Shown: piece by piece, positions 1,628 to 9,000 of the stretch
How positions within the stretch are numbered: the stretch's first letter is position 1
How the letters are laid out: each line of letters starts with the position of its first letter
Assembly (NCBI GenBank): GCA_028702015.1
Contig: JAQVPO010000018.1
Span: 1-10,606 of the forward strand
DNA: 10,606 bases
Direction: 5' to 3'
Source: Synergistaceae bacterium
Lineage (GTDB): Bacteria > Synergistota > Synergistia > Synergistales > Synergistaceae
Notes under the pieces: generated by a model
Seen by the model: only the letters and a program-made list of their open reading frames with translations
The model's database searches: none
Told to the model about the DNA's origin: nothing
Made by a program: the position numbers and the translations under genes

Positions 1628-1694
1628 AATTGACCTCCTTAATTTTTAAACAACGGGGGTATTGCTGAAACTATGGATTATATCGCTGTAGTCT

Positions 1695-1829
1695 CTAATA
1701 GGAAGGTCGCAGAAGGGAATCAGAGTGAAAAGGATAGAAATGATATCCCTCTGTTGTTTTTTCTATTGGAAAAAGGCAGCGAAAGCGGAAGGTCCAGACC
1801 ATGGACCCGCAGCAGCTAAATCACGCCAT
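1695..1829 (-). CDS. Candidate 44-aa selenoprotein or Sec-dependent leader (UGA = Sec at codon 3)
   Basis: AAGGAGG lies seven bases before ATG-GCG-TGA, an ideal ribosome site leading to an immediate UGA. The hairpin at 1785-1810 matches a bacterial SECIS element at the correct distance, so the UGA (1821-1823) is likely read as selenocysteine. With readthrough the frame is open to TAG at 1695-1697, giving 44 residues that begin M-A-U-F-S-C-C-G. U3-F-S-C6 forms a UxxC redox-like motif, with C7 and C18 also present. I do not recognise the rest, which is basic and aromatic with no obvious membrane span. It sits 67 bases upstream of yedE. It may be a real small selenoprotein, or its decoding may act only as a selenium sensor for the operon. 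An ATG five bases upstream (1832-1834) opens a 23-codon overlapping frame, but its Shine-Dalgarno spacing of about two bases is too short. Confidence 0.5.
1785..1810 (-). promoter_or_regulatory. Bacterial SECIS element
   Basis: The minus-strand RNA GGUCCAUGGUCUGGACC (1807-1791) forms a 5-bp stem GGUCC/GGACC, extendable by one A-U pair, with GGUCU in the apical loop. The E. coli fdhF SECIS upper stem-loop is GGUUGCAGGUCUGCACC: also 17 nt, with GGUCU at the same position and 12 of 17 bases identical. The G and U of that loop contact SelB. A lower stem GCG/CGC (1808-1810 with 1785-1787) extends it across a three-base bulge. The UGA lies 20 bases before GGUCU (18 in fdhF), inside the known functional range. 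The E. coli sequence is recalled from established knowledge; the folding was done by eye. Confidence 0.65.
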
Positions 1830-1891
1830 CGCATTACCTCCTTCCTTATATTAGAAAAGTATTCTGTGTCAATTGCGTACGGCTGGAAAGT

Positions 1892-7245: not shown

Positions 7246-9000
7246 TTAATTTAAATTTATATCTTCGTACGATTCATCCTGATTGAAATTGTCAATATGG
7301 AGAATGGTCAGCAAGACATAAAAGGCAAACAGCGGAAGTTTAAGTATTCTCCGCCAGCGCCAAGGTTCCTGTATTGTCCGATAGAGCCATTCAAGACATA
7401 GCTTCTGCCATATCCGAGGTGCTCTCGTCAGTTTGCCTGATATAACGTCCATAGTTCCGCCGATTCCCATTCCTACAGTTGCTCCTGATCGTGCAAGATT
7501 TTCTTCCAGCCAGTATTCCTGTTTCGGCACACCCAGCCCCACAAAAAGTATGCTTGCCTGGCTTTCACGGATCTCCCTGCAGATATCATCTGTATCTTTA
7601 TCTGTAAAGTATCCGTTTCTTGTGCCTGCGACATTGAGTCCGGGATATTTTTCTGCAAGCTTCTGAGCTGCAGCTTCAGCGACTCCTGGAGCGCCTCCCA
7701 GAAACCAAATGCCCCAGCCTTCATATGAGGCTCTCTTGCATATATGTTCTGTAAATTCTACTCCGGGTATCCTTTCCTGAATAGGCGTACGCAGAAGTTT
7801 AAGGGCTGCAATAAGCCCGGCCCCGTCCGGCAGAACAAGGCCGGCATTTTTTATTATTTTTCTGTATCTTGAATCCGTGCGGCTTCTCAATGCAGCAAGG
7901 GCATCTGGAGTTACTATCATGAAATGGCCAGAACCCTTGTTTATCCAGTGCTGAACCTGGGTGATAGCATAATTCAAAGAAATGTTGTCAACCCTTATTC
8001 CCCAGAGTTCAGGCTTTCTGAACTGGTTCCTGGCAGACTGGGAGGCATATCTGAAAAAGACCCAGGTAACTATTGAAACTGAAATCGCGACTGTTACAAG
8101 GACAAGAAAACTGGTAGTTTCTATCTGCAGGAAGGCAGCGATGCATCCGATAAAGGCGCATATCATTACCACAGTATGGACCGATGCTGCGTGATCCATG
8201 CCCTTACTTAGAAGTTTTCTGTAAAGTATCAGGTTGCCTGTCGGCTTAGGGGAAAATGCGGCGCTTACCACGCTTATAGAGGTCTCTATTAAAGGAAGTG
8301 TGAATAGCCCGAGCGGCAGTACTGCAAGAGTATAAAACGCGACGCCTTTGCTGACGCCAAAAATGGAGAGCCCTGCAAAAAGGGTTCCCCAAAGAGCGGT
8401 CAGCGGTTCCGTAAGTCTCCTGTATGCATGTATATGTCTGCTCCAGAATACAAGGATCAGCACCATGCCTATGATACACAGCTGGACAGCTTCCCTTAAA
8501 TTCTGTGATGAGAGCATTATGACTATAGAGACAAGTGTCCAGCTTACAGTGAGGAGCAGTCCGCACATTCCAGGGATCTCATCGATCTCCTGGAAAAAGA
8601 TGGGGAATACCCCGATCCAAAGAGTACTTATCGCAATAGAGGCAAAGTATGAGAGGTAATAGTACTCCCCCTGTGCAAACTCTATGAAAGCAATTCTGGG
8701 GCCGAATAGTGAAAAGCCCAGCCCTACGATAAAGTATACAAACCTTAAATTTCTTCCCCTTGTGACTTTTTGGCAGAAACCGACACAGGCCGCTGCTACG
8801 CCCGCAGCTATGGTTATCTTCAGCGGTCTGTCCGGCGCCCATATGCCGCACAGAGCCCAGGCGGCAACCAAAGTAATATCCTTGAGGTAATAGTATTGAT
8901 CACTCTCAAGATATTTTTTAAAAAAACGCTGTATAAAAATACAGAGTACAGCGACAAATAAAACCAGAAAAACTGTCAGCGTATAATTACTTTCGAACAT
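7246..9000 (-). CDS. Degenerate WecA/MraY-like membrane domain fused to WecG/TagA glycosyltransferase
   Basis: A 584-residue fusion. Residues 1-320 are polytopic with about nine or ten hydrophobic segments. They can be laid over WecA/TagO-type polyprenyl-phosphate sugar-phosphate transferases: GPRIAFIEF (100-108), FPIFFQEIDEIPGMCGL where those enzymes have TNAVNLIDGLDGL-like sequence, LTEPLTALWGTLFAG for MGDAGSxFLGF, and NLILYRKLLSKGMDHAASV (256-274) for the HLHHRLL...SHRQAV motif. The catalytic Asp/Asn/His residues are largely gone. Residues 333-560 are a normal WecG/TagA/CpsF domain: PDG (391-393), FLGGAPGVAE (433-442), GLGVPKQE (488-495), GGTMDVISGK (514-523) and the C-terminal LEWLYRTIQEPWRWRR (536-551). 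It should transfer a sugar from a UDP-sugar to a lipid-linked sugar in surface polysaccharide synthesis. The start has GGAGG about 11 bases upstream. No other polysaccharide genes are adjacent. Confidence 0.85.
   Translation of the reverse strand: MFESNYTLTVFLVLFVAVLCIFIQRFFKKYLESDQYYYLKDITLVAAWALCGIWAPDRPLKITIAAGVAAACVGFCQKVTRGRNLRFVYFIVGLGFSLFGPRIAFIEFAQGEYYYLSYFASIAISTLWIGVFPIFFQEIDEIPGMCGLLLTVSWTLVSIVIMLSSQNLREAVQLCIIGMVLILVFWSRHIHAYRRLTEPLTALWGTLFAGLSIFGVSKGVAFYTLAVLPLGLFTLPLIETSISVVSAAFSPKPTGNLILYRKLLSKGMDHAASVHTVVMICAFIGCIAAFLQIETTSFLVLVTVAISVSIVTWVFFRYASQSARNQFRKPELWGIRVDNISLNYAITQVQHWINKGSGHFMIVTPDALAALRSRTDSRYRKIIKNAGLVLPDGAGLIAALKLLRTPIQERIPGVEFTEHICKRASYEGWGIWFLGGAPGVAEAAAQKLAEKYPGLNVAGTRNGYFTDKDTDDICREIRESQASILFVGLGVPKQEYWLEENLARSGATVGMGIGGTMDVISGKLTRAPRIWQKLCLEWLYRTIQEPWRWRRILKLPLFAFYVLLTILHIDNFNQDESYEDINLN

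Follow-up and report, generated by a model that had tools for sequence, protein, structure and literature searches.

A UGA-containing leader frame with a SECIS-like hairpin upstream of yedE as a candidate selenium sensor in Synergistota and other bacteria

In a 10,606-nt stretch of Synergistaceae DNA (hereafter, the window), the gene for a putative selenium transporter, yedE, is preceded by a frame that would end after two codons, ATG GCG TGA, if its TGA were an ordinary stop. This raises the question of whether the UGA is decoded as selenocysteine (Sec) and what such a short frame is kept for. An initial annotation, made from the sequence of the window, had described AAGGAGG, seven bases and ATG GCG TGA, followed by a frame open to 44 codons. 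Reading of the minus strand bore out both descriptions in coordinates and frame: the start codon occupies 1829-1827, GCG and TGA follow, and translation with TGA as Sec gives MAUFSCCGSMVWTFRFRCLFPIEKTTEGYHFYPFHSDSLLRPSY*, a peptide of 44 residues whose frame ends at 1695 (Table 1). The leader frame is flanked by the IMP dehydrogenase gene and yedE, with 67 nt between its stop and the yedE start. The placement of the leader ahead of a yedE-tusA pair was right for yedE, which is a clear member of the YedE family TIGR04112 (491 bits against a cut-off of 200), whereas the next gene can be called only TusA/YedF-like (58.5 bits against a cut-off of 110). For YedE, a role as selenium transporter or exporter has been predicted (PMC5322559), and the leader is not mentioned in the available part of that paper on the family.

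Table 1. Features of the yedE leader region in the window
Feature	Position	Strand	Basis
tusA/yedF-like sulfurtransferase domain gene, 71 aa	316..531	minus	TIGR03527, 58.5 bits, under cut-off 110
yedE, YedE family putative selenium transporter, 360 aa	545..1627	minus	TIGR04112, 491 bits (cut-off 200)
yedE Shine-Dalgarno (SD) AAGGAGG	1634..1640	minus	sequence reading
Leader ORF, with UGA read as Sec	1695..1829	minus	44 residues, translation
Extended stem with the SECIS-like hairpin at its tip, leader SD paired with pyrimidine-rich 3' strand	1768..1845	minus	fold; folds of relatives
SECIS-like hairpin GGGUCCA[UGGUC]UGGACCU	1790..1808	minus	-9.5 kcal/mol; pair counts
UGA, codon 3, proposed Sec codon	1821..1823	minus	kept in 6/6 yedE-bearing genus genomes (window's included)
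Leader SD AAGGAGG	1837..1843	minus	7 nt 5' of ATG; direct sequence reading

The hairpin behind the UGA was compared with the model of bacterial SECIS elements (bSECIS). In the available portions of PMC13188914, this model has an apical loop of 3-9 nt and an upper stem of 4-16 bp (Fig. 2 legend), a G within loop positions 1-2, a UGA-to-loop distance of 16-37 nt and an MFE of -7.5 kcal/mol or lower. The window hairpin lies within all four constraints as given there: it has a 5-nt loop on a 7-bp stem, its loop (UGGUC) carries the G, as do the loops of the genus relatives (UGGAC, UGUAC, AGGAA), the distance from the TGA to this loop is 19 nt, and the energy of the tip hairpin is -9.5 kcal/mol. The initial annotation had located the hairpin 20 bases after the TGA, but the stem begins at 13 nt, or at 12 nt if an outer G-U pair is included. 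The figure of 12/17 identical bases with the E. coli fdhF SECIS is that annotation's own estimate. Among the 50 curated leaders introduced below, the loop, its G and the spacing of a hairpin fitted in 48, and in 38 of these the energy did too; the best hairpin in range was used here, which was not always the aligned one.

Folding of the 92-nt segment 1762-1853 gave a single long stem, tipped by the hairpin, with an energy of -37.6 kcal/mol (z = -4.24); none of 200 shuffles was as stable. The leader SD was located within the 5' strand of this extended stem. The element thus resembles the bSECIS of selenoprotein genes in loop length, stem length, loop G, 19-nt spacing and stability; it differs from them in that its stem reaches upstream to pair the leader SD and in that it serves a short frame with an unconserved peptide.

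Since short motifs are easily found by eye, this arrangement might be due to chance, that is, to an ordinary two-codon frame beside an unrelated hairpin or to a 23-aa frame reading ATG CGA TGG. One DNA match (L007) was indeed accidental and lay inside an ABC permease gene. The 23-aa frame was rejected, as it is interrupted by TAA in two aligned relatives (L004, L005). The initial annotation had named, as a check, the presence of the in-frame TGA and the hairpin in relatives, and both were retained: yedE was found in five of the seven other genomes of the genus, and all five keep ATG GCG TGA and a six-pair stem with a variable loop. In the remaining two (86% and 89% complete), neither yedE nor the leader was seen.

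The search was extended to 185 genomes, of which 108 had yedE matches; the yedE genomes of this set were placed in Synergistota by named relatives. After exclusion of two matches without an N-terminus (G061, G106), 106 upstream regions were available, seven of them short (140-635 nt including about 60 nt of gene). The strict scan demanded an SD, a start codon, a UGA within 12 codons and a hairpin whose loop has a G at position 1 or 2 and lies 15-23 nt after the UGA; the readthrough frame had to run for 10 codons or more before closing at a stop. These criteria were fixed after the first examples from family f1 had been seen, and later sets were tested with the same criteria. The scan was positive in 33 of the 106 regions, against 0.48 expected from dinucleotide shuffles; the 33 include distrusted matches, such as that of G031, and the set is made up of related genomes, with several per genus. 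With the other stop codons, the numbers were 0/106 for TAA and 1/106 for TAG. A genomic control of 1372 other windows of yedE loci, which contains some genomes twice, is largely coding and matches upstream regions only roughly, gave 9 positives with TGA, 11 with TAA and 6 with TAG. Positives were frequent in f1 (16/26), f9 (5/5), f10 (4/4), f7 (2/2) and f8 (1/2), fewer in f3 (5/50) and absent in f4 (0/11), f5 (0/4) and f6 (0/2), despite a tRNA-Sec match in 16 of the 17 genomes of the last three families.

When imperfect stems and inspection were allowed, 50 leaders in 22 genera were curated from the strict, loose and relaxed scans and from sequence reading; this count has no shuffle control of its own, and the statistics rest on the strict scan. 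Five of these leaders were added by eye (G026, G081, G084, G088, G173), three candidates whose frame closes within 5 codons were removed (G067, G070, G076), and some relaxed-scan matches (e.g., G009, G029, G037, G058) were judged to be chance. No curated leader was present in the other 56 of the 106 upstream regions. The typical starts of the curated leaders are M-A-U, M-T-U, V-T-U and R-U. A tRNA-Sec match was found in 43 of the 50 leader genomes and in 53 of the 56 yedE genomes without a leader; therefore, tRNA-Sec tracks yedE and not the leader in particular. The leader genomes without such a match were G020, G066, G096, G129, G169, G173 and G182 (55-95% complete). A covariance model (R1) built from 14 leaders gave 16 matches in the 185 genomes, all directly before yedE. 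Because 15 of these were training sequences or identical to one, with only G020 being new, this result mainly shows that there is no second copy before other genes at the sensitivity of the search, the filters of which lose weak matches.

Outside Synergistota, the strict scan was positive in 9 of 45 yedE loci from named genomes of other phyla (shuffles 0.1, TAA 1, TAG 0), namely, in seven Chloroflexota, one Syntrophales and one other bacterium. In a sample of 400 Chloroflexota genomes, the phylum of L184, yedE was found in nine, and four of these were positive (shuffles 0.0, TAA 0, TAG 0); one of the four was already known, so that three of eight new genomes were positive. tRNA-Sec was above the cut-off in all six non-Synergistota leader genomes searched, one of which (L197) came from the relaxed scan and another of which (L188) scored only 48.9 bits against the cut-off of 47, whereas 5 of 14 control genomes passed the same cut-off. 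The start N-R-R-T-U recurs in the leaders of L183, L185 and L188. By eye, M-N-R-R-T-U was also read in L253, where there is no stop ahead of yedE. As a side observation, R-R-T-U before or at the Sec codon is common to the non-Synergistota leaders L183, L185, L188, L197, L213 and L253, and this start is more conserved than the M-T-U of Synergistota.

Although nine of the 1372 unrelated windows also passed the strict scan, the chance reading is already strongly disfavoured, considering the scan statistics (33/106, 9/45 and 4/9 against the shuffle and stop-codon controls), the pairing of the stem across genera and the interruption of the 23-aa frame; it was therefore judged to be highly improbable.

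The initial annotation had also asked for selA, selB, selC and selD in the host. The host genome, the source of the window, is 65.5% complete. It encodes selA (560 bits), tRNA-Sec (76 bits) and a selD that scored 330 bits and contains a single in-frame TGA, together with a fragment of selB that lies at a contig edge beside selA and scored 203 bits, under the cut-off of 242. The host selD (G000:C32:5256-6182, L244) reads RLSERARTSG-U-AAKIG at the Sec site and has the SECIS UGGUCCGGC[GGA]GCUGGACCG, the loop of which begins 20 nt after the UGA; a GGUCC/GGACC stem is common to this SECIS and the leader hairpin. SelD of the host genus thus appears to be a selenoprotein. Within the genus, TSG-U-AAKIG and a strong SECIS were observed in L244 as well as in L243 and L245. 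Six of the eight genus genomes gave GrdA matches that contain a single in-frame TGA, partial ones in G004 and G005; in G000 and G006, the GrdA pieces stop short of the Sec site or do not show it. Compared with the leader hairpin, that of GrdA looks different and its loop is longer. Because of the host sel genes, the selD hairpin and the GrdA matches, it may be concluded from the genomes that the genus uses Sec and that its selD uses a SECIS of the leader type.

Whether the RNA or the peptide is under constraint was studied in 14 leaders of family f1. In the tip stem, 97.6% of cells were in standard pairs, compared with 86.5% in shuffles, and when the partners were shifted by 1 to 3 columns, no more than 50% remained paired. 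Three of the six tip-stem pairs were changed on both sides (GGUCCA/UGGACC versus GGCUCG/CGAGUC), but shuffles gave similar numbers (mean 2.5), and the changes represent one split only, between genus g1 (5 rows) and the 9 others. They therefore amount to one well-paired replacement and not to many independent ones. The stems of other families, which were not aligned, have a different sequence again, yet they are paired. In some f1 leaders, ACG before the UGA is part of a lower stem (80.4% of cells paired).

These data bear on the first of two options raised initially, a tiny selenoprotein or a selenium-sensing leader. A functional selenoprotein of about 20-60 residues, working alongside YedE and TusA in, for example, redox chemistry or the carriage of selenium, would agree with a frame open to 44 residues, with the lack of internal indels in the pairs G001-G004 and G001-G002 and with a slight excess of third-position changes beyond the hairpin (63/152, p = 0.022, from non-independent pairs). 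However, the C-termini are unrelated between genera, and the UGA-to-loop spacing is 17, 18 or 19 nt among genera, so that the reading frame across the hairpin differs and the encoded peptides do too (ARVPSL, GSCTES, GSMDWT). Internal indels of 1 nt separate G021 from G150, and those of 1, 1 and 2 nt separate the window's leader from G001. The UxxC pair pointed out in the window is present there but is not conserved, the residues after U in genus relatives being FRNY, FRSY, FISF and SCST, and a conserved CxxU or UxxC is absent from the leaders that were compared. Conserved sequence around Sec, as expected of a selenoprotein family, was thus lacking, since the peptide is unconserved between genera and the frame shifts across the hairpin. 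A tiny selenoprotein is therefore the poorer fit and, in our estimate, unlikely. As the hairpin and UGA are kept while peptide sequence and frame change, the sensing leader fits better, and the comparison points to a leader kept for UGA plus SECIS rather than for its peptide.

The hairpin could also be a SECIS-like operator that binds SelB, with the UGA as a mere stop, as in the translational control of E. coli selAB. In E. coli, SelB is known to exert control by way of SECIS RNA; for selAB, such control via a SelB/SECIS-like element was reportedly described by Thanbichler and Bock in 2002. This precedent, the SECIS-type hairpin in the 5' region of a selenium gene and the long stem that hides the leader SD speak for an operator. 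In an operator of the selAB type, however, the hairpin lies beside the SD of the regulated gene and there is no Sec codon, whereas the yedE leader hairpin follows an in-frame UGA, rather than UAA or UAG, of a leader ORF with its own SD, at SECIS spacing, and in the window it is about 150 nt from the yedE SD. An operator with a meaningless UGA was considered quite improbable, slightly more so than a selenoprotein.

The leader UGA is probably read as Sec. This is the best reading because it would explain why UGA, and not UAA or UAG, stands behind an SD and at the distance of a SECIS, in genomes that use Sec and before a selenium gene. The comparison establishes the UGA-SECIS arrangement, its UGA specificity, its conservation, its position before yedE and the Sec machinery of the host; Sec insertion, a response of yedE and the sign of that response are inferred. 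It is likely that the leader senses selenium, with Sec insertion or termination at the UGA setting yedE expression; the leader looks like a switch that would measure selenium by attempted translation. A ribosome would initiate at the leader SD and reach the UGA and the correctly spaced SECIS, usually within 2 to 10 codons. If SelB with Sec-tRNA were available, the UGA would be decoded, and the ribosome would pass the hairpin and continue to the stop of the leader, as a rule 13-52 codons further on. With selenium in short supply, release factor 2 would terminate translation at the UGA, and the ribosome would depart early. The two outcomes would cover or free different 5' stretches of the mRNA and thereby set the level of yedE expression.

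Ribosome-mediated leader-peptide attenuators of the trpL type contain a short SD-bearing frame with codons for the sensed amino acid. The yedE leader likewise has a short SD-bearing ORF with a codon for the presumably sensed amino acid, an otherwise variable peptide and a related, nutrient-handling gene downstream. It differs from the trpL type in that it would sense Sec at a recoded stop codon, so that scarcity would mean termination and not stalling, and in that no intrinsic terminator was found in 1600-2120. The modelled accessibility of the yedE SD in 36 leaders was on average 0.30 for free RNA, 0.33 with a ribosome at the UGA and 0.30 with a ribosome at the leader stop. This model did not support a switch that hides the yedE SD, as the shifts were inconsistent over these leaders (4 cases one way, 9 the other way). 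The readthrough frame overlaps the yedE start in G012, G066, G082, G119 and G123, and in G130 and G169 it meets no stop ahead of yedE; such arrangements might allow coupling or interference.

As for the sign of the response, it may be guessed, at only slightly better than even chances, that scarcity of Sec raises yedE expression, since the yedE mRNA of Methanococcus maripaludis increased by 5.3 log2 units under selenium starvation, according to the available text of PMC11097638; this species is an archaeon, whose SECIS system differs from the bacterial one. The same text states that deletion of yedE caused no clear transport defect there, and no clear role in transport was seen for the YedE of this species.

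Rfam models gave no match at the window leader (E up to 5) or at 12 further loci (E up to 1), and no paper on a Sec leader before yedE was found in the open-licence literature, subscription papers being mostly outside this coverage. Therefore, the yedE leader was classed as a new, putative form of leader-ORF control, the signal of which would be the 21st amino acid. On balance, it seems somewhat probable, as one joint claim, that these leaders constitute an unnamed and widespread class of selenium sensors that gauge the supply of Sec-tRNA via a UGA-SECIS in a disposable leader frame and control a selenium transporter, and that this class, an attenuator reading the 21st amino acid, spans Synergistota, Chloroflexota and at least one Syntrophales genome. 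If yedE expression depends on Sec decoding, the leader would be a selenium sensor made of the decoding machinery itself, and YedE would be tied to selenium by regulation, beyond co-occurrence. It would also suggest the existence of a class of short Sec frames likely missed by ordinary gene finders and by homology-based selenoprotein searches.

Several other features of these loci were observed. A GC-rich element with the core GCCTGCCG lies between the leader stop and yedE in several f1 genera (L041, L043, L044, L071, L073). In 12 genomes of f3 genus g20 (G035, G077, G079, G081, G082, G084, G088, G100, G105, G106, G112, G113), a tRNA-Sec gene is located beside yedE in convergent orientation, at a distance of approximately 0.3 kb from where the yedE match ends, and in G156, tRNA-Sec is adjacent to yedE in divergent orientation. 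Positions 7246-9000 of the window contain a 584-aa ORF that by eye resembles a membrane domain joined to a WecG/TagA-type glycosyltransferase.
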